This document shows, piece by piece, positions 1,937-33,167 of a stretch of 33,419 nucleotides of DNA; the first letter of the stretch is position 1; each line of letters begins with the position of its first letter. The stretch comes from Myxococcota bacterium (GTDB lineage Bacteria; Myxococcota_A; UBA9160; JAFDET01), in assembly GCA_028278065.1 (NCBI GenBank), contig JANQFA010000107.1:1-33419 (forward strand). Reading direction: 5' to 3'. A program made the translations under genes and the position numbers. The notes under the pieces were generated by a model, which was not told the DNA's origin, did not search any database, and saw only the letters and a list, made by a program, of their open reading frames with translations.

Positions 1937-2368
1937 TCAGCGGGCGGTGTCGAACTCGCGATCGAGCGTCGCCAGAACGGCCTCTTCGGCCTCTTCGTGG
2001 CTCTTGAAGACGGAGGACAGGGACTCGGTGGCCTGTCGGGCCTCGCCGCGCTTCCCCCGACCCAGCAGGGCCTCCAGGTGGTCCAGCTGGGCGACGAACT
2101 CGTCGTGGGCGTCCACCAGGCCCTTGAGCTCGGTCTTCAGGTCCGGCCGCAGTGCCCAGATCGCCGGATAGTAGAGCCGGTCCTCCTGGTCGAAGTGGGT
2201 CTCCAGGGCGGCGCGCAGCTCCTTCAGCGCAGCCCGGGCGGCATCCGGCTCGCCCTCCGGGTGGAAGGAGTCCAGGACCTCCTCGAAGAGAGTCTCCAGT
2301 CGCCGATGCTCGGCAAGCACGTCACGCTCCACGGAATCCCCCGAGATGGACCCGTCTTCGGGCGGCAC
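1937..2368 (-). CDS. Hemerythrin HHE-domain protein
   Basis: A 143-residue all-helical protein with the HHE cation-binding pattern: AEHRRLETLFEE, then LETHFDQEDRLYYPAI, then LVDAHDEFVAQLDHLEALL, then FKSHEEAEEAVL. The spaced His and Glu/Asp residues would bind a di-iron centre that senses or binds O2 or NO, or buffers iron. The open frame extends back through the neighbouring gene, but GTG at 2368 is chosen because GAGGA sits about 6 bases upstream and the frame before it overlaps the divergent Crp/Fnr gene. Being divergent from a Crp/Fnr regulator suggests a role in redox or oxygen response. That is contextual only. Confidence 0.85.
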   Translation of the reverse strand: MPPEDGSISGDSVERDVLAEHRRLETLFEEVLDSFHPEGEPDAARAALKELRAALETHFDQEDRLYYPAIWALRPDLKTELKGLVDAHDEFVAQLDHLEALLGRGKRGEARQATESLSSVFKSHEEAEEAVLATLDREFDTAR

Positions 2369-2444: not shown

Positions 2445-3107
2445 ATGGGGCCTGACATCGCGATCGAGCAGGCGGAGTTCTTCCGCGCCCTCCCCCGGGA
2501 GCGACTCGAGCGCGTCAAGCCGCTGCTGACCGAGAAGAAGTTCGAGCGCCAGAAGGTCTTGTACTTCGAAGGCTCGCCGGCCAACCGCTTGTGGGTCGTG
2601 CGCCGTGGCGAGGTGCGGCTCTACAAGAGCTCGCCGAGCGGGCAGATCACGACCCTGGACGTGTTGGGGCCGGGCGAGATCTTCGGCGCCGTTTCGGCCC
2701 TGGAGCAGGACGTTCATCCCTCCAGTGCGGAGACCGTGAGCCGCGGCAGCGCCTGGTGCCTCAAGCGCGAGGAGTTCCTGCGCCTGCTGGACGAAGACCC
2801 GCGGCTCGCCGTGGAGATCGTCCAGGTCGTGTCCCGCCGCCTGCGCGACGCCCACGACCGGCTGCGGTCGCTGGCCCACGACCCGGCGCCGCGCCGCCTG
2901 GCGCTCGCGCTGCTACGGGCCGCACCCGAGGGGGAGGCCCAGGTGACCCGCCGCGCCCTGGCCGAAGCCGCGGGCACCAGCGTCGAGACGGCGATCCGCG
3001 TGATCCGGCGTCTGGAGGTGGGCGGCGTGGTCAGCGGCGACGTGGGCCGGGTGCGCATCCTGAACGCTGCGATCCTGCGCAAGATCGCCGGGACCGACGC
3101 CGACTGA
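2445..3107 (+). CDS. Crp/Fnr-family transcriptional regulator
   Basis: A 220-residue regulator with an N-terminal cyclic-nucleotide-binding-like beta-roll (about residues 15-115, with FEGSPANRLWVVRRGEVRLY and LGPGEIFGAVSAL), a long dimerisation helix (about 120-145) and a C-terminal winged HTH. The recognition helix reads TSVETAIRVIRRL: V180, E181 and R185 occupy the positions of the DNA-contacting residues of FNR (V-E-x-x-S-R) and CRP (R-E-x-x-G-R), but the fourth contact position is Ile184. There is no N-terminal Fe-S cysteine cluster and only one Cys (105), so it is not an FNR-type oxygen sensor. ATG 2445 is preferred to GTG 2439 because AAAGG is 8 bases upstream. It lies immediately upstream of the molybdoenzyme cluster and is the obvious candidate to bind its palindromes. 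Confidence 0.9.
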   Translation: MGPDIAIEQAEFFRALPRERLERVKPLLTEKKFERQKVLYFEGSPANRLWVVRRGEVRLYKSSPSGQITTLDVLGPGEIFGAVSALEQDVHPSSAETVSRGSAWCLKREEFLRLLDEDPRLAVEIVQVVSRRLRDAHDRLRSLAHDPAPRRLALALLRAAPEGEAQVTRRALAEAAGTSVETAIRVIRRLEVGGVVSGDVGRVRILNAAILRKIAGTDAD

Positions 3108-3134: not shown

Positions 3135-3150
3135 TATGACCGAAGTCATA
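3135..3150. promoter_or_regulatory. Operator-like palindrome 1 (TATGAC CGAA GTCATA)
   Basis: A perfect 6+6 inverted repeat with a 4-base spacer, ending 54 bases before the TTG of catalytic subunit A. TGA and TCA are six bases apart, the spacing of CRP and FNR sites, but the half-site TATGAC differs from both TGTGA and TTGAT. It lies between the Crp/Fnr gene and subunit A, so it may serve the subunit A operon. Confidence 0.75.
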
Positions 3151-3204: not shown

Positions 3205-6045
3205 TTGCTCTCGCGACGGCGATTCCTGCAGGCCGGCGTGGCCGGCGGTCTCGCGCTGGGGCTGAACCGCCTGGCGTGGCTGTCGCCGCCCAGCGCCCGC
3301 GCCGCGAGCCGCGTCGCCTACGCCGACTGGAAGGACGTGTACCGCGAGCGCTGGCGATGGGATCGCGTCGCGCGAGGAACCCACACCAACGTCAACTGCG
3401 TGTCGTCGTGTGCGTGGAACCTGTACGTGCGCGACGGGATGGTGTGGCGCGAGGAGCAGTCGGCGCCCTACGCCGCGTCGAACGACCGCGTCCCGGACTT
3501 CAACCCGCGCGGGTGCCAGAAGGGCGCCAGCTGCAGCGATCTGCTGCTCGGCCCGACGCGCATCCTGCACCCGATGCGGCGGGTGGGTCCGCGCGGCGGC
3601 GGCCGCTGGAAGCGCATCTCGTGGGACGAGGCGCTGGACGAGATCGCGCGCAACCTGGTGGACGTGCTGGTCGAGCGCGGGGGCGAAGGTGCCCTCTGCG
3701 AGCTGGGACCCAACGTGGACTACGGGGCGAACACCGCCGGGGCCCTGCGCTTCTTCCGCCAGGTGGGCGTCCCCCTGACCGACTCCATGGGCCAGATCGG
3801 CGACCTGGCCGTGGGCGGAACCATCACCCTGGGCACACCGCACTGCGACGGCACCTCCGATGACTGGTTCCGCTCCGACCATCTGGTCCTGTGGGCCTTC
3901 AATCCCGCGACCACGCGGATCCCCGACGCCCACTACGTGCACGAGGCCCGCTACCGCGGGGCACGCGTGACCTGCATCGCGCCCGACTACAACCAGAGCG
4001 CCATCCACGGGGACCTTTGGATCTCGATCCGGCCGGGGACGGACGCCGCGCTGGCCCTGTCGGCGTGCCAGGTGATCCTCGCCGAGGGACGGCACGACGC
4101 GGCCTACGTCCGCGAGCAGACCGACCTGCCGTTCCTGGTGCTGGAGGAGTCGGGCCGCCTGCTGCGCGAGTCCGACGTCTTCCGGGGCGGCCGCGACGAC
4201 CGCTTCGCCGTCTGGGATGAGCAGAACGACCGCCTGGTCTGGGCGCCGGGCACCGCCGGCAGCATGGACAGGACCCTGATCATGCCGCCGGGCGTCCGGC
4301 CGGCCCTGGACGTGAAGCGCAGCGTCGAGCGGTACGACGGGCGAAGGGCGGGTGTGCGCACCGCCTTCTCGCTGCTGCGCGAGCGCCTGGACCGGGACCT
4401 GACGCCGGAGAAGGCCGGCGCGGTCACCGGCGTGGCCCCGAACCTGATCCGCCGCTTCGCGCGCGACGTCGCCGCGGCCCGATCGACCCTGATCCTGTCC
4501 CAGTGGGGCTCGTGCAAGAACTACCACTCGGACCTGATCCAGCGCTCGCAGATCCTGCTGGCCTCGCTGACGGGGAACCTGGGCCGCGCCGGCGGGGGCT
4601 GGCGGTCGGGCGCCTTCGTGGCCCTGGACGGGCTGGGCGTGGTGGCCATGCAGGACCAGCTCGACCTGCCCCGCCTGGGCCTGCTGATGGCCCGCTCGCT
4701 GATCGACAAGTCGGCCGTGATGCACCAGTTCGAGTCCATGTACGTGCCCAGCACTGTCTTCCACGCGGTGCACGGCGGGCTGGGAGAGAGGGCGGGCGGC
4801 GCGCTCTCGGGCGAGGGGCAGCTCCCCGACGGTGCCGCGCCATACCTGGCCGAGGCCGTGGAGAAGGGCCACTTCCCGGTGGGCCCGGCACCGGGCAGTG
4901 CGCCGCCGGAGGTGATCTTCAACTTCTGCGGCAACGTGCTGCGCCACACCCGCGGCGGCGAGCGCGTGCGCGAGGCGCTGTTCGACGACGCGCGCCTGGT
5001 GACCACGATCGACTTCCGCATGAGCCAGACCGCGCGGCACTCGGACATCCTCCTGCCAGCGGCCGGCTGGTACGAGAAGATCGGCATCAAGTACATCGCC
5101 GCGTTCGTGCCCTACGTCACCCTGGGCGACCGCGCCGTCCCGCCGCGGGGCGAGTCGAAGCCCGAGTGGGAGATCTTCTCGCGCCTGGCCGAGCGCGTCG
5201 GCGCCGAGGCCCGCAAGCGCGGCGTGACGAGCGTCAAGGGCTTCCGCGGCCAGGACTGCCCCATCGACCAGCTGAGCGCGCGCTTCAGCGACGCCGGGCG
5301 CTTCGGCCCCGACGCCCAGGAGGACGTGGTGCGCTTCATCCTGACGCTGTCGGGCGCGTCCCGAGGCATCAGCCTGGACGACCTCCGCGAGCAGGGTGGC
5401 GCCGTCCGGATCAGCAGCCTCGGCCCCCAGGGCGGCACCGCCGGGATCTACTCCGACTACTCGGAGCAGGAGCCGGTCGTGCCCATGCGCGACTTCGTGG
5501 AGAAGAAGCGCCCCTACCCCACGCTGAGCGGCCGCCAGCAGTTCTACGTGGACCACCCCTGGTTCCTGGAGCTGGGCGAAGAGCTGCCGACCCACAAGGA
5601 CCCGCCGCGCGCCGGTGGCGACCACCCGTTCGTGATGACCGGCGCCCACGCGCGCTGGAGCGTCCACTCCATGTGGCGCGACCACGCCATGATGCTGCGC
5701 CTGCAACGCGGCGAGCCGCTGGTCTGTCTGAACGAGAACGAGGCCGCGGCGCGCGGGATCGGGGACCACGACCTCGTGCGGGTGAAGAACGACCTGGACG
5801 CCTTCGTGGCGCGCGCCCGGACCTCGGCAACGATCCGGCCCGGTCAGGTCCACATCTACCACGCCTGGGAGCCGTACCAGTTCCGCACGGGGAGGAGCCA
5901 CCAGGCGCTCTCGCCGAGCCCGTTCAAGGTGACGCAGCTCGTGGGAGACCACGGGCACCTGCGCTGGGGCTACGCCCACTACGAGCCCAACCAGGTGGAT
6001 CGGGACACGCGCGTCGACGTCGAGAGAGTCGATACGTCCGGATAG
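3205..6045 (+). CDS. Type II DMSO-reductase-family catalytic (alpha) subunit, paralog A
   Basis: Binds bis-MGD molybdenum and one Fe-S cluster and carries out the oxidation or reduction, passing electrons to a beta subunit. 946 residues. The Tat signal is at the extreme N-terminus (SRRRFLQAGVAGG), so the folded enzyme is exported. FS0 ligands are His60, Cys65, Cys69 and Cys104 (HX4C, CX3C, CX34C). Asp200 in IGDLAVGG aligns with the Mo-ligating Asp of NarG and the type II family. The C-terminus has the cofactor-binding TGAHARWSVHSMW and YHAWEPYQF blocks. The TTG start has GGGAGG 5-6 bases upstream. Length (about 950) fits ethylbenzene or steroid C25 dehydrogenase-like enzymes, not NarG (about 1240). 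FNFCGNVLRHTRGG groups it with paralog E rather than B, C and D. No intact beta gene follows; only a relic is seen. Substrate unknown. Confidence 0.93.
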   Translation: MLSRRRFLQAGVAGGLALGLNRLAWLSPPSARAASRVAYADWKDVYRERWRWDRVARGTHTNVNCVSSCAWNLYVRDGMVWREEQSAPYAASNDRVPDFNPRGCQKGASCSDLLLGPTRILHPMRRVGPRGGGRWKRISWDEALDEIARNLVDVLVERGGEGALCELGPNVDYGANTAGALRFFRQVGVPLTDSMGQIGDLAVGGTITLGTPHCDGTSDDWFRSDHLVLWAFNPATTRIPDAHYVHEARYRGARVTCIAPDYNQSAIHGDLWISIRPGTDAALALSACQVILAEGRHDAAYVREQTDLPFLVLEESGRLLRESDVFRGGRDDRFAVWDEQNDRLVWAPGTAGSMDRTLIMPPGVRPALDVKRSVERYDGRRAGVRTAFSLLRERLDRDLTPEKAGAVTGVAPNLIRRFARDVAAARSTLILSQWGSCKNYHSDLIQRSQILLASLTGNLGRAGGGWRSGAFVALDGLGVVAMQDQLDLPRLGLLMARSLIDKSAVMHQFESMYVPSTVFHAVHGGLGERAGGALSGEGQLPDGAAPYLAEAVEKGHFPVGPAPGSAPPEVIFNFCGNVLRHTRGGERVREALFDDARLVTTIDFRMSQTARHSDILLPAAGWYEKIGIKYIAAFVPYVTLGDRAVPPRGESKPEWEIFSRLAERVGAEARKRGVTSVKGFRGQDCPIDQLSARFSDAGRFGPDAQEDVVRFILTLSGASRGISLDDLREQGGAVRISSLGPQGGTAGIYSDYSEQEPVVPMRDFVEKKRPYPTLSGRQQFYVDHPWFLELGEELPTHKDPPRAGGDHPFVMTGAHARWSVHSMWRDHAMMLRLQRGEPLVCLNENEAAARGIGDHDLVRVKNDLDAFVARARTSATIRPGQVHIYHAWEPYQFRTGRSHQALSPSPFKVTQLVGDHGHLRWGYAHYEPNQVDRDTRVDVERVDTSG

Positions 6046-10190: not shown

Positions 10191-10630
10191 CCCTTGTCTC
10201 GGGGACCGACGACGCGCCCGTGCAGCAGCGAGTGATAGCGCCAGCGGCCCGGCATGTGCGAGGAGACCGCCCCGATGACGATGGTGAGGGTCAGCACCGG
10301 GACCGCCGCGGCGGGCTGCGCCTGCGCCAGCACCACCAGTCCGATCTTCACCAGCGTGGCCACGCCACGCACCTGGACCAGCCACACGGGCGCGCGGACT
10401 GCCTCCAGGGCCATCAGCGCCGTCCCCGTTCCCACCGTGGCCGTCAGCGCCGCGGCCAGGCGCTCCGCCGCGATTCCATGCACGTGGCCTCCGTAGAGCA
10501 CCCCGAAGGCGAGCAGGTGGGCCGTACGCAGCAGGGTGCGCCAGAGGCGCAGGTGGGGAATCGGCCTGGGGTCGGCCTCGAGCCGGGCCAGGCCTCGCTG
10601 CGGCGGCGGCTGCGACTCGTCCCCGGCCAT
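10187..10630 (-). CDS. Small multi-span membrane protein, possibly electron transfer
   Basis: 147 residues with four hydrophobic segments (about 35-50, 58-78, 88-104 and 108-124) and several His residues (His38, His49, His51, His125, His133, His137) in positions that could bind heme or metal, notably GGHVHG and RYHSLLHGR. I do not recognise the family with certainty. ATG 10630 is chosen because the frame upstream loses membrane-protein character and runs across the divergent mobB gene. Its stop overlaps the start of the cytochrome-b-like gene. The pair is transcribed away from mobB across palindrome 2, so one operator may control both directions. A role as partner of the cytochrome b is inference. 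Confidence 0.65.
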   Translation of the reverse strand: MAGDESQPPPQRGLARLEADPRPIPHLRLWRTLLRTAHLLAFGVLYGGHVHGIAAERLAAALTATVGTGTALMALEAVRAPVWLVQVRGVATLVKIGLVVLAQAQPAAAVPVLTLTIVIGAVSSHMPGRWRYHSLLHGRVVGPRDKG

Positions 10631-10666
10631 GGCGCCGAGCCTAGCGGCGCCTCCCCCCTCGCGGGA

Positions 10667-10682
10667 TATGACCCCGGTCATG
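10667..10682. promoter_or_regulatory. Operator-like palindrome 2 (TATGAC CCCG GTCATG)
   Basis: Same geometry as palindrome 1 with one mismatch at the outer base of the right half. It lies in the 115-base divergent region between the membrane-protein pair (start 10630, minus) and mobB (start 10746, plus), 63 bases upstream of mobB and 36 upstream of the membrane gene, so it could act on both. Confidence 0.7.
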
Positions 10683-10745
10683 CTGGCTCCCTCGGGCCTG
10701 CCGTACCGTCCGCGCGATGGCCCAGACCGGAGGCTCGGAGACAGG

Positions 10746-11342
10746 GTGAGCCGTCGAGACACGCCGTTCGTAGTGGGGTTGGTCGGAAGCGCCGGCGTCG
10801 GCAAGACCAGCCTGCTGGAACGGCTGATCCCGGAGATCGCGGAACGCGGGCTCGCCGTCGGAGTCGTGAAGCACGCATCCCACGGCTTCCAGGTGGACCG
10901 GCCCGGGAAGGACTCGCACCGCCTGTACGCGTCGGGACCTTCCGCCGTGGCGCTGGCCTCGGACGAGCAGGTGGCGACCTTCGTGCGGCCCGCCACGGAG
11001 CGCACCGTGTCGCTGGGCAGCGCCATGGCCGGACTGCCGGCAGGCCTCGACGTGGTGCTGGTGGAGGGCTTCGGCTGGGAGCCGATCCCGCGCTTCGTCC
11101 TGGTCCGCCCGGAGAGCGCCCCGCGCCGCGAGCACCTGCAGTCGGGACCCGTGCTGGGCGTGGTACAGGTGCCGGAGCCGCTCCCCGACGCCAAGCCCAG
11201 CTACGCGGACACGCTGGTGCGCAAGATCGCGCTGGAGATCGCGGGCCACCCGCCCGCACATCGAGGCCCCCGCCCATGCGCGCACCCCCGCCCTCGTGTC
11301 CGGGTCGCGCTGGGCGTGATCCCCTCATGGGTCCAGGAGTAG
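10746..11342 (+). CDS. mobB: Molybdopterin-guanine dinucleotide biosynthesis adapter MobB
   Basis: A 198-residue P-loop protein. Walker A is GSAGVGKTS (about residues 13-21), followed by MobB features VGVVKHASHGFQVDRPGKDSHR (given here as VGVVKHASHGF and DRPGKDSHR), a central ALASDEQVATF and the VLVEGFGWEPIPRFVLVRP block typical of MobB. It assists MobA in attaching GMP to molybdopterin, making the MGD cofactor of the DMSO-reductase family. GTG 10746 has GGAG 5 bases upstream. The Pro/Arg-rich tail after residue 165 is not part of the usual fold. It heads the gamma-beta-C-D operon; the stop overlaps the ribosome binding site of the gamma gene. A dedicated copy beside five Mo enzymes suggests high cofactor demand. 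Confidence 0.9.
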   Translation: MSRRDTPFVVGLVGSAGVGKTSLLERLIPEIAERGLAVGVVKHASHGFQVDRPGKDSHRLYASGPSAVALASDEQVATFVRPATERTVSLGSAMAGLPAGLDVVLVEGFGWEPIPRFVLVRPESAPRREHLQSGPVLGVVQVPEPLPDAKPSYADTLVRKIALEIAGHPPAHRGPRPCAHPRPRVRVALGVIPSWVQE

Positions 11343-22543: not shown

Positions 22544-23749
22544 TCAGAGCTTCTCGGCGCCGACCAGCCCGAGCAGGTCGTTGCAGCCGTCTTCGATCAT
22601 CGAAGCCCGCGCGTCGCGCAGGAGCTTCTCGGCGGGGTACTCCCGGCTCAGGCCGTTGCCCCCGTAGATCTGCAGGCCCAGGCTCGCCACATCGTAGGCA
22701 GTCTGGGTGCAGAAGGTCTTGGACGCGATCGAGTACTGCACCAGCGGCGGGTGGGTCGCGTTGTAGAGCGCGACGCGCCGCGCCAGCGAACGCGCAGCCT
22801 CCACCTGGGAGAACATCCTGAAGAGCTTCGCCTTCACGTTCTGGTGCTCGAAGATCGGCACACCGCCCTGGATGCGCTCCTTGGCGTAGGCCAGGGCGTT
22901 CTCGAGGGCGGCGCGGGCCACGCCCACGAAGATGGTCCCCATGGCCGCGTTGGCCATGGCCAGCACCATCTCCACGACGGCGCCGTAGGCCTCCTTGCCG
23001 ATCACCATGTACTCGGCGGGGATGCGAACGTCGTCGAAGAAGATCTCACCCTGATTCAGCGCGCGCTGACCCAGCTTGTCCAGAGGCGCGCCGCGCGAGA
23101 CGCCGTCCAGGTCCAGGGGCACCAGCGCCACGCCGCCACCCTTGAAGCCCGCGGCCAGGTCGATGGTGCAGAACAGCGCAGCCGTGGTGGCGATCGTCCC
23201 GTTGGACACCCAGGCCGCCTTCTGCCCGTTGATCACCCACTCGTTCCCGTCCTGGCGCGCCACGCAGTTGGGACGGATCGTCGGATCGTCGAAGTGGGGC
23301 TGGTCGAAGGCCAGGGAGTCGCTGCCGTGGTCCGGCTCGGTGATCGCCCAGCAGCCGATCTCCGGACGGTCGGGCGAGGCGAAGCGCTCCATTAGCTCGG
23401 GCCGCATCGAGATGCGCGCGAACATCGCGGGGAAGCCCGCCACGCCCAGACCGATCGCCAGGCCCGAGTCGCCCCAGCCCAGCTCCTCGCTCACCAGGTA
23501 GCGCAGCCGCGCGCGCTGGATCGGGTCGCCTTCCGGATCCCCGTCGTCGAGAGCGTCGAACTGCAGCGCCCGATACTGCTCGAAGACCTTCCACAACACC
23601 GATTCCGGAGCGATCACCTGGGACGGGTCCGCCAGCCGGTCCAGCTCGGCACCGGCCGGCCGCATCACCTCGGCGGCGAACTTGTGGGCGGTGTGCCGGA
23701 CGGCCTGCTCCTCGTCCGACAGGCCGACCTCGATGTCCTCGAGGGGCAT
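22544..23749 (-). CDS. Acyl-CoA dehydrogenase
   Basis: 401 residues of the FAD-dependent acyl-CoA dehydrogenase family, forming the alpha-beta double bond of an acyl-CoA. Seen: WAITEPDHGSDS (signature 1), a VINGQKAAWVSNGTIATTAAL strand (split as VINGQKAAWVSNG and TIATTAAL), QVEAARSLARR and the C-terminal IYGGNGLSREYPAEKLLRDA with MIEDGCNDLLG, where Glu386 is at the catalytic-base position of medium-chain enzymes. ATG 23749 has GGAGG 8 bases upstream; the open frame beyond it is antisense-like noise. It is the first gene of the minus-strand operon, with palindrome 3 about 60 bases upstream. Confidence 0.93.
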   Translation of the reverse strand: MPLEDIEVGLSDEEQAVRHTAHKFAAEVMRPAGAELDRLADPSQVIAPESVLWKVFEQYRALQFDALDDGDPEGDPIQRARLRYLVSEELGWGDSGLAIGLGVAGFPAMFARISMRPELMERFASPDRPEIGCWAITEPDHGSDSLAFDQPHFDDPTIRPNCVARQDGNEWVINGQKAAWVSNGTIATTAALFCTIDLAAGFKGGGVALVPLDLDGVSRGAPLDKLGQRALNQGEIFFDDVRIPAEYMVIGKEAYGAVVEMVLAMANAAMGTIFVGVARAALENALAYAKERIQGGVPIFEHQNVKAKLFRMFSQVEAARSLARRVALYNATHPPLVQYSIASKTFCTQTAYDVASLGLQIYGGNGLSREYPAEKLLRDARASMIEDGCNDLLGLVGAEKL

Positions 23750-23809: not shown

Positions 23810-23825
23810 TATGACCGGGGTCATA
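23810..23825. promoter_or_regulatory. Operator-like palindrome 3 (TATGAC CGGG GTCATA)
   Basis: A perfect 6+6 inverted repeat, 61 bases upstream of the acyl-CoA dehydrogenase start on the minus strand. The distance is nearly the same as that of palindrome 1 from paralog A, supporting a shared activation geometry. It ties the acyl-CoA operon to the same regulator as the Mo enzymes. Confidence 0.75.
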
Positions 23826-23951: not shown

Positions 23952-23967
23952 CATGACGGCGGTCATA
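23952..23967. promoter_or_regulatory. Operator-like palindrome 4 (CATGAC GGCG GTCATA)
   Basis: One mismatch in the outermost base of the left half. It ends 100 bases before the GTG of paralog E, farther than in the other units, so a longer leader is expected. It shares the 15-base core TGACGGCGGTCATAC with palindrome 5. Confidence 0.72.
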
Positions 23968-24067: not shown

Positions 24068-26839
24068 GTGGCCGGAACGACCGGGAATTGGGCGGACGCG
24101 TATCGCAGCAAGTGGACCTGGGACAAGGTCACCTGGGGCAGTCACTCGGTGGACTGCTACCCCGGCGGCTGCCCGTGGCGCGTGTTCAGCAAGGACGGGA
24201 AGATCGTCCGCGAGGAGCAGGCCGGCACGTTCGCACCGGTGGAGCCCGGCATTCCCGACATGAACCCGATGGGCTGCCAGAAGGGTGCCTGCTGGAGCCA
24301 CTGCCACTACTCCCAGGACCGCGTCACTCAGCCGCTCAAGCGCACCGGCGAGCGCGGCGAGGGCCGGTTCGAGCCGATCTCGTGGGAGCAGGCGTTCAGC
24401 GAGATCGCCGACGGGATGCTCGACGCGATCCAGGACCAGGGCGCCGCGTCGATCATCAACCTGTTCACGCCGGAGCCCGGGGCCGCTCCGGCGCGCGTCT
24501 TCTCCGACGTGCTGGGCCTGCCCACCACCGACGGCAACGCGGAGTTCCAGGACTTCAGTCCCGGCTGGCACATCACGTGGGGTCTCTACAACCCGACCGC
24601 CAGCATGGACGATTGGTTCCTGGCGGATCTCACCCTCATCTGGCACGCGAACCCCGTGTACACCAACATCCACTGGTACCACTACGTGGCCGAGTCCCGG
24701 TACAACGGCGGCGAGGTGGTCACCATCGCGCCGGACTACAGCCCGTCCGCGATCCACGCCGACTACCACCAGCCGATCCGCATCGGCACCGATGCGGCGC
24801 TGGCCCTGGCCATGTGTCAGGTGATCATCGACGCGGGCCTCTACCAGAAGCAATTCGTGCAGGAGCAGACGGACCTGCCGCTGCTGGTGCGCTGCGACAA
24901 CGGCCGCTTCCTGCGCGGCACCGACATCATGGAGGCCGACCGCGACGACCAGTTCTTCTGGTGGGATGCTTCCAAGGACGTGCTGACCGCCGCGCCGCGC
25001 CACACCCTGGCGCTGGGCGGGGTGGATCCCGCCCTGGAGGGCCGATACGAGGTCACGCTCAAGGATCTGTCCAGCGTCGAGGTGGAGCCCGTCTTCTCGG
25101 TGCTCAAGCGCCATCTGGAGGCCTATTCGCCCGAGGAGGCCGGACGGATCTGCGAGATCCACCCGGACAACATCCGCAAGCTGGCCCGCAAGGTGGCCAC
25201 GCGGAAGACCAAGATCTTCATCGGCTGGAACTCGGGCAAGTACTACCACGGCGACCTGATGGAGCGCGCCATGGCCCTGCTGCTGGGCCTGACCGGCAAC
25301 TGGGGCAAGAAGGGCACCGGCACGCGGTCCTGGGCGATCTCGGGCATGGACGGCGAGATCTTCCTGGGCGGCAAGGAGGCGCCGGGCCAGGAGGCCGCCC
25401 AGAAGCTGATCGCCGGCATGATCGCCATGCGCCGGCTCATCGCCGCCGACGACCCCACCCTGACCGCGGAGATGATCAACAACCGCATGATGAAGCTGGC
25501 CGCCGACGCCGACGGCGCCGCGGGCTTCCCCATGCCGCCCGCCTTCCTCTGGTACTACCAATACGGCTACAAGGAGCGCTGGAACGACCGCGAGAATCAC
25601 GACCCGTCCATGAAGCGCAGCTTCGACGAGTACGTCGAGGAGGCCATCGAGAAGGGTTGGTGGGACCCGCGCTACTCCAAGGTCTACCAGGACGTGGAGC
25701 CGCGGGTGCTGTTCGAGTCGGGGGGCAACGTGCTGCGCCGCCAGCGCGGCGGTCAGAAGCTGCTGCTCGAGCACCTGTGGCCCAAGCTCCAGACCATCGT
25801 CTCGGTGGACTACCGGATCACCACGACCGGCCTCCACTCGGACTACATCCTGCCCGCGGCCCAGCACTACGAGAAGCTGGGCCACAGCATGCCGTCGGTG
25901 CACCACCTGAACTACGTGCTCTGCGACCGGGCCCAGGAGCCCCAGGGCGAGGCGCTGCCCGACGTGGAGATCGGCTTCCGGCTGCTGGAGGCGATCGAGG
26001 AACGCGCGGCGGCCCGCGGCATGTCGGAGTTCATCGACGCCACGGGCAAGGCGCGGAGCCTCCAGAACCTGACCGACGCGCTCACCCACCAGGGCGCCCT
26101 GCGCGACGAGGAGAAGCGCATCGACGAAGCGATCCGCGATAGCGGCGTCTACGGCGTCCTGCCCAAGGGCAGCAGTCTGGCGACGCTGCGCGAGAAGGGC
26201 CACGTGCGCTGGGAGAACTGGGGGATGATCCTGCACGGCGTGCCCCAGGCCTCGACCCTGAAGCCCGACGAGGTGCACAACCCGCTGCGCTGGCACACCG
26301 AGGACAAGATCCCCTACGACACGCTGGTCCGACGCGCCCAGTACTACATCGACCACGAGTGGTTCCTGGAGGCCGGGGAGCAGCTCCCCACCCACAAGGA
26401 ACCGCCCAACGCGGGCGGGGGGCGGCGCCGCTTCCAGATGACCAGTGGACACAACCGCTGGAGCATCCACAGCATGAACATGACCAACAACATCCTGCTG
26501 AACACGCATCGGGGAGAGCCCTTCGTGTTCATCAACGACACGGATGCCGCGGACCTGAGTGTCGAGAACGGCGCCAAGGTCAAGCTCGTCAGCGACATGG
26601 GTGAAGTGCTGGTCGCGGCGAAGGTCACGCCGTCGTGCCGACCCGGCCAGGTGATCCTGTACAACGGCTTCGAGCCCTACATGCACGAGAACTGGTACGG
26701 ACAGGCGGATCTGGAGCCGGGGCACGTGAAGCACCTGGGCTTCGCGGCCGGTTACGGCCACCTGGACTGGCGGATCCTCTCCTGGCAGCCGATCCCCGCC
26801 GACCGGGCGGTTCGGGTAGACGTCGAAACCCTGGGCTGA
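24068..26839 (+). CDS. Type II DMSO-reductase-family catalytic (alpha) subunit, paralog E, no Tat signal
   Basis: 923 residues from GTG 24068, preceded by AAGGAGGA at 7 bases; an in-frame stop at 24032-24034 excludes an upstream extension. The protein begins MAGTTGNWADAYRSKWTWDK, i.e. directly at the position where the mature domain of its paralogs starts, so the twin-arginine signal is absent. FS0 ligands: His26, Cys30, Cys35 and Cys70 (HX3C, CX4C, CX34C). Candidate Mo ligand Asp162 in QDFSPGWHITWG. C-terminal TSGHNRWSIHSMN and YNGFEPYMHENW differ from the YHAWEPYQF of the others. SGGNVLRRQRGG groups it with A. Beta subunit 2 follows after 42 bases. It is either cytoplasmic or exported with a partner. 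Substrate unknown. Confidence 0.94.
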   Translation: MAGTTGNWADAYRSKWTWDKVTWGSHSVDCYPGGCPWRVFSKDGKIVREEQAGTFAPVEPGIPDMNPMGCQKGACWSHCHYSQDRVTQPLKRTGERGEGRFEPISWEQAFSEIADGMLDAIQDQGAASIINLFTPEPGAAPARVFSDVLGLPTTDGNAEFQDFSPGWHITWGLYNPTASMDDWFLADLTLIWHANPVYTNIHWYHYVAESRYNGGEVVTIAPDYSPSAIHADYHQPIRIGTDAALALAMCQVIIDAGLYQKQFVQEQTDLPLLVRCDNGRFLRGTDIMEADRDDQFFWWDASKDVLTAAPRHTLALGGVDPALEGRYEVTLKDLSSVEVEPVFSVLKRHLEAYSPEEAGRICEIHPDNIRKLARKVATRKTKIFIGWNSGKYYHGDLMERAMALLLGLTGNWGKKGTGTRSWAISGMDGEIFLGGKEAPGQEAAQKLIAGMIAMRRLIAADDPTLTAEMINNRMMKLAADADGAAGFPMPPAFLWYYQYGYKERWNDRENHDPSMKRSFDEYVEEAIEKGWWDPRYSKVYQDVEPRVLFESGGNVLRRQRGGQKLLLEHLWPKLQTIVSVDYRITTTGLHSDYILPAAQHYEKLGHSMPSVHHLNYVLCDRAQEPQGEALPDVEIGFRLLEAIEERAAARGMSEFIDATGKARSLQNLTDALTHQGALRDEEKRIDEAIRDSGVYGVLPKGSSLATLREKGHVRWENWGMILHGVPQASTLKPDEVHNPLRWHTEDKIPYDTLVRRAQYYIDHEWFLEAGEQLPTHKEPPNAGGGRRRFQMTSGHNRWSIHSMNMTNNILLNTHRGEPFVFINDTDAADLSVENGAKVKLVSDMGEVLVAAKVTPSCRPGQVILYNGFEPYMHENWYGQADLEPGHVKHLGFAAGYGHLDWRILSWQPIPADRAVRVDVETLG

Positions 26840-27940: not shown

Positions 27941-27956
27941 GGTGACGGCGGTCATA
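27941..27956. promoter_or_regulatory. Operator-like palindrome 5 (GGTGAC GGCG GTCATA)
   Basis: The right half is perfect and the left half keeps TGAC, with two outer mismatches. It lies in the 89-base gap after beta 2 and ends 49 bases before the ATG of the flavin oxidase-cytochrome c gene, similar to the 54 bases at paralog A. It shares a 15-base core with palindrome 4. Confidence 0.62.
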
Positions 27957-28005
27957 CCTTCCGCAGCCCGTCCCTGCGAGCTTGACCCACACGGCGGAGG
28001 GTGGC

Positions 28006-29901
28006 ATGGGCGGAGTGCGTGGCGACGGGGCCAGTCGACGCAGCTTCCTCAAGGCAGTGGGCGCTGCGGTGGGAGCCGCAGCGCTGCCGCTGGGCGGCGG
28101 GCCGACGACGCGGGCCGCAGCGCTGCCGCTGGACGGCGGGCCGACGGGGCGGGCCGCAGCGCTGCCGCTGGGCGACGGGCCGACGGGGCGGGCCGCCGGC
28201 AGCAACGCCTACGACGCGGTGGTCCTCGGCGGCGGCTTCGCGGGAGTGTGCGCCGCCCGCGAGCTGCGCCACGCCGGACTGCGCGTCCTGCTCCTCGAGG
28301 CCCGCAACCGGCTGGGCGGGCGGACCTTCACCGCCCGGCTGGGTCAGGAGCTCTTCGACCTGGGCGGGACGTGGGTCCACAGCACCCAGCCCCACGTCTT
28401 CGCCGAGATCAACCGCTACGGGCTGGAGCTGGTCGAGAACCCGGCCGTGATCCCCGAGCTGCTGCTCTGGTGGGACGGCGCGCGCGTGCGCCAGGCGGGT
28501 GTGCGAGAGTGGGCGCCGCTCCTGAAGGAGGCGTTGTGCGCGACCGGCGGGGAGACGCCGGAGGCGCCCATGTCGGTGCTCAAGGGCTACGCGCTGCTGC
28601 AGCGGCAGATGGTCGAGTTCCACGCCGGAGCCGCCGCCGCGTTCCCGCGCCCCTTCGAGCCGTTCTTCGCCGACGCCTGGCGCGATGCCGACGCGCTCAC
28701 GGTCCGCGATCGCCTGGACCAGATGGACCTGCCGGACTCGCGGCGGGCGCTGCTGGAGGGCGTGCTGGGCGCCAGCGCCCACGGCGCCTTCGACCAGGCG
28801 AGCCTGCTGGAGATGCTGCGCTGGTGGGCCCTGTCGGGGCACGACCTCCAGCGCTACTCGGACAGCGTGGCGCGCTTCCGGTTCCGCCACGGCACCGTCA
28901 GCTTGATCGAGGCCATGCTCGAGGACGGGCGTCCCGACGTGCGGCTCGGGGCGCCGGTGGTCCAGGTGACCCAGAATGGCGAGGAGGTCGCGGTCGTCAC
29001 CGAAGCCGGCGAGCGCTTTCGCGCGCGCGCGGTCGTCGCGGCCCTTCCGCTGAACGTGCTGGCGAAGATCCGCTTCACACCGGAATTGCACCCCGACAAG
29101 GTCGCCGCCTCGCGCGAGCGACACGCCGGTGCCGGGATCAAGCTCTACGCGCGCGTGCGGGGCGAGCTCCCGCCCGTGGCGATCTTCGCCCCGGAGTCGG
29201 AGCCGCTCTCTTCGGTCTTCACCATGGCGCAGGGCGAGCACGGGAGCGAGCTGGTGGCGTTCGGGACCGACCCGCGACGCATCGACGCCCACAGCGCCCC
29301 GGCGGTGCAGGCGTTCCTGCGCCGCTTCCTCCCGGACGTGGAGGTCCGCGACACGGTCTCCTACGACTGGCACCTGGACCCCTGGTCGCTGGGCACCTGG
29401 TGCGTCCTCCGCAAGGGACAGATGGGGAAGTACCTGCCGGGCCTGCGCGCGCCCCAGGGACGCGTGCACTTCGCCGGCGCCGACTGGGCCCTGGGCTGGC
29501 GCGGCTTCATCGACGGGGCCATCGAGATGGGCAACCGGGTGGCGCAGCAGGTGGTCGCCCAGCTCGAGGAGCGAGCGGAGCCGCAGGAGGCCGCGACAGA
29601 CGGCCGCGACGGAGAGCCTGCCCTCCAGTCGTGCGCGGTGTGTCATCCCAGCGATGCGTCCGGCGCGCACGGCGTGGGGCCGAACCTGCGCGGCGTCCAC
29701 GGGCGCGACGCCGCCGCCGACCCCGGCTTCGCCTACTCGCGCGCTCTGCGCGAGCGCGGCGTCACCTGGACCGACGCCGAGCTCGATGCCTTCCTGGCCG
29801 ATCCCGCCGGCTACGTCCCGGGCACCACCATGCCCTTTTCCGGGATCGCCGATCCGCAGGAGCGCGCCGCCGTGATCCGCGCGCTGCGTCAGCTCCGGTG
29901 A
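28006..29901 (+). CDS. Tat-exported flavin amine oxidase fused to cytochrome c
   Basis: 631 residues. A Tat signal (SRRSFLKAVGAAVGAAALPL) is followed by three copies of a 13-residue repeat (25-63), then a flavin monoamine oxidase domain: dinucleotide fold VVLGGGFAGVCAARE with G75-G80, LEARNRLGGRTF, LGGTWVHSTQPHVF, and the C-terminal FAD motif FAGADWALGWRGFIDGAIEMG (split as FAGADWALGWRG and FIDGAIEMG). Residues about 535-631 are a class I cytochrome c: CAVCH (C543, C546, H547) and TTMPFSG with Met608 as likely axial ligand. Such a fusion implies that electrons from the flavin go to heme c instead of O2. ATG 28006 has GGAGGG upstream; TTG 27982 is an alternative. Substrate unknown; an amine or a C-C bond next to a carbonyl are possibilities. 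Confidence 0.92.
   Translation: MGGVRGDGASRRSFLKAVGAAVGAAALPLGGGPTTRAAALPLDGGPTGRAAALPLGDGPTGRAAGSNAYDAVVLGGGFAGVCAARELRHAGLRVLLLEARNRLGGRTFTARLGQELFDLGGTWVHSTQPHVFAEINRYGLELVENPAVIPELLLWWDGARVRQAGVREWAPLLKEALCATGGETPEAPMSVLKGYALLQRQMVEFHAGAAAAFPRPFEPFFADAWRDADALTVRDRLDQMDLPDSRRALLEGVLGASAHGAFDQASLLEMLRWWALSGHDLQRYSDSVARFRFRHGTVSLIEAMLEDGRPDVRLGAPVVQVTQNGEEVAVVTEAGERFRARAVVAALPLNVLAKIRFTPELHPDKVAASRERHAGAGIKLYARVRGELPPVAIFAPESEPLSSVFTMAQGEHGSELVAFGTDPRRIDAHSAPAVQAFLRRFLPDVEVRDTVSYDWHLDPWSLGTWCVLRKGQMGKYLPGLRAPQGRVHFAGADWALGWRGFIDGAIEMGNRVAQQVVAQLEERAEPQEAATDGRDGEPALQSCAVCHPSDASGAHGVGPNLRGVHGRDAAADPGFAYSRALRERGVTWTDAELDAFLADPAGYVPGTTMPFSGIADPQERAAVIRALRQLR
28078..28194 (+). repeat. Three tandem 39-base repeats in the signal-peptide linker
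   Basis: Units at 28078-28116, 28117-28155 and 28156-28194 differ at only a few positions. Each encodes 13 residues of the form AALPL(G/D)(G/D)GPT(T/G)RA. They lengthen the stretch between the Tat hydrophobic core and the folded flavin domain. The near identity points to recent expansion by slippage or recombination. Confidence 0.9.
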
Positions 29902-32550: not shown

Positions 32551-32778
32551 ATGACGAAGCGGCTCACGCGCTCTGGAAACAGCTTGGCCCTCGTGATCGA
32601 CCGGCCTCTCCTGGAAGCGCTGGACATCGACGCGGACACGGAGCTCGAGCTGTCCACCGATGGCGACGTCCTCGTCGTGACTCCACTGCGCGACCGCAAG
32701 CGAAGGCGTCGGGTCGCGGAGCTCGTCGCCGAAGCGCACGAGCAATACGGCGGCGTGTTCCGACGCCTCGCCGAGTGA
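32551..32778 (+). CDS. AbrB/MazE-type antitoxin
   Basis: 75 residues with the swapped-hairpin DNA-binding start MTKRLTRSGNSLALVIDRPL and the ELELSTDGDVLVVTPLR strand pair typical of AbrB/MazE proteins. The C-terminal half (RKRRRRVAELVAEAHEQYG) would wrap the toxin. ATG 32551 begins the conserved domain exactly; an in-frame ATG at 32524 gives a 9-residue extension with no family support. Its stop overlaps the start of the Doc gene (GTGA), the usual coupling of such pairs. It probably represses its own promoter. Confidence 0.85.
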   Translation: MTKRLTRSGNSLALVIDRPLLEALDIDADTELELSTDGDVLVVTPLRDRKRRRRVAELVAEAHEQYGGVFRRLAE

Positions 32779-33167
32779 CCGAACCGCTCTTCCTGACCCT
32801 CGACGAGGTCGTGGCGATCCACGCCGATCAGGTCCGGCGGTACGGCGGGCAGACGAGGCTGCGAGACCTCGGCTTGCTGCAATCGGCATTGGGCATGCCC
32901 GAGACCACTTTCGAGGGCGAGTTCGTTCACGGAACCCTCTTCGAGATGGCGGCGGCCTACGTCTTCCACGCCGCCCGCAAGCACCCGTTCGTGGACGGGA
33001 ACAAGCGAACAGCGCTCATGTGTGCACTGGTGTTCCTCGGACTGAACAGTTGGCGACTCGAGGCGGAGTCGGACGCGCTCTACGAGCTGGTCGACGGCGT
33101 TGCTGCAGGCTCGGTCGACAAGGCCGAGGTCGCGGTCCTTTTGCGCCAGAACTCTGTCGGCCGCTAG
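32775..33167 (+). CDS. doc: Doc-type (Fic-fold) toxin
   Basis: 130 residues of the death-on-curing family. The Fic motif HPFVDGNKRTA (about residues 75-85) carries the catalytic His and the phosphate-binding loop. LRDLGLLQSALGMPETTFEG is the conserved N-terminal element (split LRDLGLLQSAL and GMPETTFEG). Doc phosphorylates elongation factor Tu in known cases and so arrests translation. The partner here is an AbrB/MazE-like antitoxin, which is a known alternative to Phd. GTG 32775 overlaps the antitoxin stop. Confidence 0.9.
   Translation: MTEPLFLTLDEVVAIHADQVRRYGGQTRLRDLGLLQSALGMPETTFEGEFVHGTLFEMAAAYVFHAARKHPFVDGNKRTALMCALVFLGLNSWRLEAESDALYELVDGVAAGSVDKAEVAVLLRQNSVGR

Follow-up and report, generated by a model that had tools for sequence, protein, structure and literature searches.

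The crp locus and its surroundings

The window, by which we mean the whole stretch of 33,419 nucleotides analysed here, carries a gene for a Crp/Fnr regulator (crp) that diverges from a hemerythrin gene and is followed by a cluster of molybdoenzyme genes. The features needed for the argument are given below; gene starts come from a codon-bias gene caller made for the analysis and are approximate.

1937–2332, minus strand: hemerythrin HHE gene, divergent to crp (PF01814, 3.4e-15; gene call)
2445–3107, plus strand: Crp/Fnr regulator, ETAIR type, 220 residues (Pfam PF00027 and PF13545; AlphaFold2; structure match)
2982–2999, plus strand: codons of V180-E-T-A-I184-R185 (alignment; helix DNA pattern at 2973–2998 of C250)
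3135–3150, no strand: putative operator TATGACCGAAGTCATA, with crp on one side and the first molybdoenzyme alpha gene on the other (pattern scan)
3205–6045, plus strand: type II DMSO-reductase-family alpha subunit (ethylbenzene-dehydrogenase-like), putative target (TIGR03479, 2.1e-256, below curated cut-off)
10667–10682, no strand: putative operator TATGACCCCGGTCATG in the divergent region before mobB, EB_dh gamma, beta and alpha (pattern scan, gene calls)
10704–10709, plus strand: candidate −10 hexamer TACCGT, its centre 32 bp downstream of the centre of the 10667 operator
10773–11342, plus strand: MobB (molybdopterin-guanine dinucleotide biosynthesis), the gene that directly follows the 10667 operator (TIGR00176, 2.5e-26, above cut-off, scanned as 10536–11339; gene call)
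22544–23749, minus strand: acyl-CoA-dehydrogenase-like gene, putative target, one of six homologous target genes (named by eye)
23810–23825, no strand: putative operator TATGACCGGGGTCATA between the divergent acyl-CoA-dehydrogenase-like (minus) and alpha-subunit (plus) genes
23952–23967, no strand: second putative operator CATGACGGCGGTCATA in the same divergent region
24068–26839, plus strand: alpha subunit homologous to the 3205 alpha, putative target (same BLAST cluster of targets)
27941–27956, no strand: degenerate operator-like site GGTGACGGCGGTCATA upstream of an FAD oxidoreductase/cytochrome c gene (two mismatches; doubtful)

The crp reading frame is open from the ATG at 2445, with an in-frame GTG at 2439. 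Its product has the domain order of the Crp/Fnr superfamily, a cNMP-binding barrel (PF00027, 2.4e-21) followed by a Crp-type helix-turn-helix (HTH_Crp_2, PF13545, 3.2e-08), both above the Pfam cut-offs. The AlphaFold2 model (mean pLDDT 93.6, pTM 0.79) places the recognition helix at residues 180–192; its best structural match is CRP of M. tuberculosis (4a2u; Z 24.1, rmsd 2.3, 214 aligned residues, 24% identity), and it also matches FNR of A. fischeri (5e44; Z 22.2), the match spanning residues 3–217. Scored against the NCBIfam models for named regulators (FtrB, CRP, NtcA, FixK and Fnr) the protein falls below every curated cut-off, the best being FtrB at 53.3 bits against 211.

Between 3205 and 30715 there are five type II DMSO-reductase-family (ethylbenzene-dehydrogenase-like) alpha subunits, two betas, one EB_dh gamma and one chaperone in a 33-kb cluster, with two alphas, one beta, the gamma and the chaperone identified by profile and the rest by eye. 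The betas, gamma and chaperone being fewer, several alphas may swap partners. The gene at 27982–29901 is a fusion, with an FAD amine-oxidase-like domain and, at the C-terminus, a domain resembling cytochrome c-550 (NF043008, below cut-off), and the protein at 32775–33167 contains the string HPFVDGNKRT and has, judged by eye, a Fic/Doc (death-on-curing) domain.

A Crp/Fnr subfamily with the ETAIR helix

The original prediction described a recognition helix of the form V-E-x-x-I-R, and in the numbering of the protein itself the alignment indeed reads V180, E181, T182, A183, I184 and R185. It also called this helix unusual, but the helix is not rare, as 222 stretches of a species-level genome set, namely those matching helix peptide patterns, encode a relative. 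All 23 aligned family members have ETAIR, preceded by V or I; that alignment (A2, 23 members) leaves aside partial copies in G026 and the additional copy in G009. Near the helix T168, R169, G177, T178, T182 and A183 are also conserved in the subfamily, in an alignment whose rows were partly fetched by the helix peptide, so that conservation of the helix columns is by construction.

A wider alignment (A3) comprises the window protein and 73 of 80 loci, omitting L154, L155, L156, L159, L166, L167 and L171. In a tree of 58 rows, made up of 30 of the 74 A3 rows and 28 others, all 44 ETAIR proteins lie on one side of a single branch with support of 89/90. The ETAIR proteins are thus compatible with a single origin, judged from sequence relationships, and helix and operator may have been joined by descent.

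Putative operators in the window and in its own genome

Matches to ATGACNNNNGTCAT occur exactly at 3136, 10668, 23811 and 23953, within the four palindromes at 3135, 10667, 23810 and 23952, which, as predicted, all have A immediately preceding TGA. All four are intergenic by the gene calls, and three lie in divergent regions. With up to two mismatches allowed there are 17 matches in the window against 5.35 expected, a number that none of 100 shuffles reaches. These counts, together with the co-occurrence across genomes and the motif-free inverted-repeat scan given below, rule out chance palindromes. The pattern scan found no operator upstream of crp itself in the window.

Within the 5.35-Mb genome the 16-mer TATGACNNNNGTCATA has four exact sites, two in the window (C250) and two on contig C60, and both of the sites with one mismatch are again in the window. 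The C60 sites flank a paralogue of crp that is 74% identical and has the same VETAIR helix; downstream of them lie genes for a radical-SAM protein and a CDP-alcohol phosphatidyltransferase. This paralogue also adjoins a hemerythrin gene, and a TATGATCGCGATCATA palindrome overlaps its start.

Helix and operator occur together

Searching 60 relatives detected a clear member of the Crp family in 22 genomes (E down to 4e-42), other Crps giving 2e-26 and weaker. Exact TATGAYNNNNRTCATA was present in 22 of the 22 family-positive genomes (120 sites) against 3 of the 38 others (3 sites; Fisher 1.6e-13), where the 38 include G059, which has a truncated family member (residues 4–69) and no site. A reversed control pattern gave 5 matches across the 60 genomes. 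The ninefold wider pattern TBTGAYNNNNRTCAVA, which forbids A before TGA on both sides, gave 28 sites in the 22 genomes and 100 in the 38; as the pattern with C, G or T before TGA has no link to the family, the link is to the A.

Among 282 genomes of the same phylum, a DNA pattern for GT-x-[VI]-ETAIR was found in 26. Because this pattern requires GT before the helix it misses proteins with NVR[VI]ETAIR, and the phylum counts rest on it. Within the class of the window genome exact sites were present in 17 of 17 VETAIR carriers (96 sites) against 5 of 42 non-carriers (one each), while of the nine carriers elsewhere in the phylum a single one had any. Four site-bearing genomes scored as non-carriers (G179, G124, G268 and G265) were found to encode Crps with NVR[VI]ETAIR and to have sites of the TATGAT-N4-ATCATA type. 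No ETAIR Crp was found in G250, G224, G257 and G282 despite two to four exact TATGAYNNNNRTCATA sites in each, which could mean that a gene was missed, that something else reads the site, or that the sites are there by chance.

For other phyla, 50 genomes were picked for their VETAIR Crps; they represent 50 of the 57 loci that lie outside the own clade, with L154, L156, L159, L161, L166, L167 and L171 omitted. The 26 Nitrospirota/Rokubacteria-type genomes held 71 sites against 9 for the control and the 19 Chloroflexota genomes 65 against 2, while the five Aquificota genomes, with 13 against 10, showed no clear excess. G106 stands apart from the other four Aquificota genomes, with one control match but seven TATGATTTAAATCATA-like sites. 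The Chloroflexota class was also sampled evenly, with 150 genomes, and sites were present in 33 of 36 carriers (128 sites) and 45 of 114 non-carriers (81 sites).

A strict rule by which VETAIR always means the operator fails in Aquificota and in eight of the nine own-phylum carriers outside the class. The original prediction, that the change in the helix and the change in the site may be matched, is partly supported: within the subfamily it agrees with co-occurrence, the base before TGA, intergenic position and −10 spacing, and with recurrence in other phyla, but these same two groups limit it, and the comparisons do not single out Ile184. When VETAIR helices were surveyed for the same helix beside a different conserved operator, no alternative conserved operator was found. 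For the subfamily the matched pairing of helix and operator is well supported by these sequence comparisons.

The base preceding TGA and the arrangement of promoters

At 23 own-clade loci picked by Crp alone there were 43 intergenic symmetric xTGAY-N4-RTCAx sites, and in all 43 the base x was A; the only two intragenic sites of this kind both had C. At 27 Nitrospirota/Rokubacteria-type loci A was present in 19 of 20 intergenic symmetric sites. Near crp the operator was not found at 24 Chloroflexota loci (A in 0 of 6 symmetric intergenic sites), and no symmetric xTGAY-N4-RTCAx site was found at six Aquificota loci. A motif-free scan around crp, covering all 5-mer half-sites with gaps of 2–10, gave TATGA-N6-TCATA as the top palindrome of the own clade, at 19 of 23 loci against a background of 0.0; in the Nitrospirota/Rokubacteria-type group it tied for first with ATGAT-N4-ATCAT (7 of 26 each, background 0.05). 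The same scan gave no shared palindrome near crp in Chloroflexota or Aquificota, though whole Chloroflexota genomes hold the operator.

Operators at crp itself are usually TATGAT and those at other target genes mostly TATGAC (for example L037:11307, L092:797, L093:9964, L199:4023 and L217:4044), possibly a built-in affinity difference for autoregulation.

None of the 77 distinct sites in own-clade loci lies inside a called gene, in sequence that is about 73% genic, and 69 are at most 350 bp upstream of a start. Regions L192–L231 and L232–L251 were chosen for exact sites, so they contribute site position, neighbours and spacing but no site counts; a count of 102 of 103 is not used as evidence because it takes in such regions.

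In the class II geometry of CRP and FNR the operator is centred at −41.5 and the −10 element at −9.5, a difference of 32. TAnnnT offsets had no role in the choice of sites, and TAnnnT was found at exactly +32 from the operator centre in 16 of 122 gene-oriented promoters, with 8 more at 33 and a mean elsewhere of 0.28. The peak recurs in the independent Chloroflexota set, at exactly +32 in 13 of 21 sites (13 of 42 strand views; mean elsewhere 0.60), and the Nitrospirota/Rokubacteria-type group has 5, 5 and 5 at 31, 32 and 33 of 48 views (mean 0.68). Read from sequence, TAnnnT at +32 is the geometry of a class II activator, replicated in Chloroflexota. In the window a full TAnnnT at +32 is present only for the 10667 operator; the hexamer at +32 from the 3135 operator, GACCTT, is a partial match, and there is none for 23810 and 23952 on the alpha-gene side.

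The putative regulon

Target genes were named by Pfam on one member of each cluster, except that beta, MobB and acyl-CoA dehydrogenase were assigned by eye. In the own clade the commonest target clusters are crp and hemerythrin (14 each), followed by the molybdoenzyme alpha (10), acyl-CoA dehydrogenase (6), AurF-like (4), Coq4-like (4) and PhyH (3). The pairs and singles include the beta subunit, an NO reductase (NorB_cytochrome_c-like, 4.5e-50), HemN, a ferredoxin, HGD-D, an FAD_binding_2 protein, MobB and a cytochrome. The NO reductase lies downstream of sites in two genomes; a domain search found no NorB cytochrome-c-like domain in the window genome.

In the Nitrospirota/Rokubacteria-type group the gene after the near-crp site is a small COX1/NnrS-like membrane protein, DUF1858, ScdA_N or hemerythrin. 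Chloroflexota targets are a fumarate reductase flavoprotein, a thioredoxin-like [2Fe-2S] ferredoxin, PocR-HTH, methylmalonyl-CoA mutase and a multiheme cytochrome. Taken together, the putative targets point to anaerobic metabolism and NO handling, by guilt by association.

At four Chloroflexota loci (L233:3090, L239:2208, L249:3082 and L250:3373) operators precede HTH_17-PocR-like genes, the PocR and HTH_17 assignments having been checked on the L249 copy only. This suggests that the PocR-like genes form a second-tier sensor under Crp.

The sensor domain

The absence of Fe-S cluster cysteines, also part of the original prediction, is borne out: the window Crp has a single cysteine, C105, and no cysteine is conserved among 24 own-clade rows. 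Fe-S sensing is ruled out on this ground. Compared with the cAMP-binding GlxR, the GE..RTSSA segment becomes GA..YPASA in the A3 profile and GAVSALEQDVHPSSA in the window, so that the family profile lacks the Glu and Arg-Ser of the CRP phosphate-binding cassette. A histidine of the dimer helix, His137, is present in 83% of own-clade rows and 89% of Nitrospirota/Rokubacteria-type rows. We take it to align with the position of CRP Ser128, near the effector site, and a role for it in heme binding is a guess. HcpR offers a precedent for a Crp/Fnr barrel able to hold heme (PMC12750200). Heme/NO-type sensing by the window Crp is a tentative proposal, to which we give slightly less than even odds.

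Relation to known regulators

The subfamily resembles FNR of E. coli and A. fischeri in its fold, the V-E..R frame of the helix, the TGA core, the 4-bp gap of the palindrome, class II spacing and the anaerobic character of the target genes. It differs in lacking the four cluster cysteines and in its putative operator, which has TATGA where that of FNR is TTGAT-N4-ATCAA; Ile184 presumably occupies the position of FNR Ser212. CRP, whose operator is TGTGA, and GlxR are close in structure, the best match of the model being the M. tuberculosis protein, but GlxR has the helix RETVNK and a cAMP pocket whose Glu and Arg are not kept here. CRP/FNR specificity swaps were reportedly described by Spiro in 1990.

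DNR, NnrR and HcpR share with the window subfamily the lack of FNR cysteines, and NO reductase, NnrS-like and hemerythrin/ScdA_N genes are among the putative targets of the latter, but their motifs, as given in part of Rodionov et al. 2005, are TTGAT, TTGcg, TGTGA, TTGAC or GTAAC (PMC1274295). Sections of the same study, which describe HcpR, DNR, NnrR and others as lacking FNR cysteines, correlate helix-turn-helix residues 180 and 181 with motif bases 3 and 6 in these and other regulators; its section 8 does not treat residue 184, and the strings TATGA, ATGAC and ATGAT are absent from its main text. A 2025 survey of the helix-turn-helix gives, in one part, no specific base contacts other than residues 180, 181 and 185 (PMC12531629). 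In the one open-access collection searched, nothing was found on the pair of ETAIR helix and TATGAC operator.

A probable class II activator with its own operator

Considered as a whole, the analysis favours, with a probability of roughly 0.8, a dimeric Crp/Fnr activator of the widespread ETAIR-helix subfamily that would bind TATGAY-N4-RTCATA, Y being mostly C at target genes, and that has a putative anaerobic/NO regulon. Subfamily, operator, putative regulon and promoter geometry draw their support from sequence statistics, and we infer DNA binding, the reading of bases by residues, and activation. As in CRP and FNR, reading of the TGA core would fall to E181 and R185, and V180 together with I184 would accept A:T, but not G:C or T:A, just before TGA. 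Activation would be of class II, from an operator centred about 41.5 bp before the transcription start. The regulator would control itself in many genomes, the neighbouring hemerythrin and, in the window, the large cluster of ethylbenzene-dehydrogenase-like enzymes, which are of the oxygen-independent hydroxylation type; elsewhere the subfamily goes along with genes for NO reductase and HemN and with further anaerobic genes. Its N-terminal barrel, which lacks both Fe-S cysteines and the phosphate-binding Arg, may sense NO or anoxia, perhaps via heme as in DNR and HcpR, and the window Crp is most likely an anoxia/NO-responsive class II activator.

How the A came to be selected is a narrower matter. 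The operator might have been kept by descent, with the A dictated by DNA shape or by residues besides Ile184, which would then be a passenger. The single supported branch that holds all ETAIR rows fits this account, as do the other conserved residues near the helix, but the operator persists where the residues flanking ETAIR change, as in the NVR[VI]ETAIR proteins, and it still accompanies proteins only 30–35% identical to the window Crp. We consider descent alone a real possibility, if one we would lean against. Since a single origin would fit the ETAIR proteins and the whole helix is common to all of them, Ile184 is not isolated as the cause of the operator change; as such a cause it is plausible. 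The fuller proposal, that 184 is a third specificity position of Crp/Fnr proteins, at which, with V180 and E181 held, Ile184, where FNR has Ser and CRP has Gly, selects A before TGA, and that this code marks an old NO/anoxia-responsive subfamily across Myxococcota, Nitrospirota, Rokubacteria/Methylomirabilota and Chloroflexota, seems to us evenly balanced.

The remaining alternatives concern the signal and the binding protein. All strong sites in the window lie in the molybdoenzyme cluster, and catabolic genes recur as targets elsewhere (CoA-transferase, an FAD_binding_2 dehydrogenase, acyl-CoA dehydrogenase), as would be expected of a local regulator of a hydrocarbon/steroid-type cluster that senses a substrate-derived ligand or a nucleotide. 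However, crp and hemerythrin are the commonest targets, no substrate is common to the NO reductase, HemN, NnrS/COX1-like, ScdA_N, DUF1858, fumarate-reductase and multiheme cytochrome genes, and the nucleotide version is at odds with the loss of the phosphate-binding Arg and Glu of GlxR. We regard such a sensor as unlikely and favour NO or anoxia over a substrate-derived ligand because of the gene neighbourhoods. That the TATGAC palindromes are bound by some other protein, with Crp a bystander, is very improbable: some genomes without a detected ETAIR Crp do have one to seven sites, but sites and Crp co-occur across genomes, an autoregulatory site is positioned at crp in many of them, and a TGA-N6-TCA core with class II spacing is typical of Crp/Fnr sites.

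The preferred reading, a class II activator of the ETAIR subfamily with an operator of its own, bears on more than this one locus. Protein–DNA recognition has a textbook example in the Crp/Fnr code, and the natural experiment described here, replicated in several phyla, points at residue 184. The operator supplies a candidate anaerobic-metabolism regulon in largely uncultured groups and, if the residue-184 code is true, regulons would become readable from the genomes of many uncultured species.
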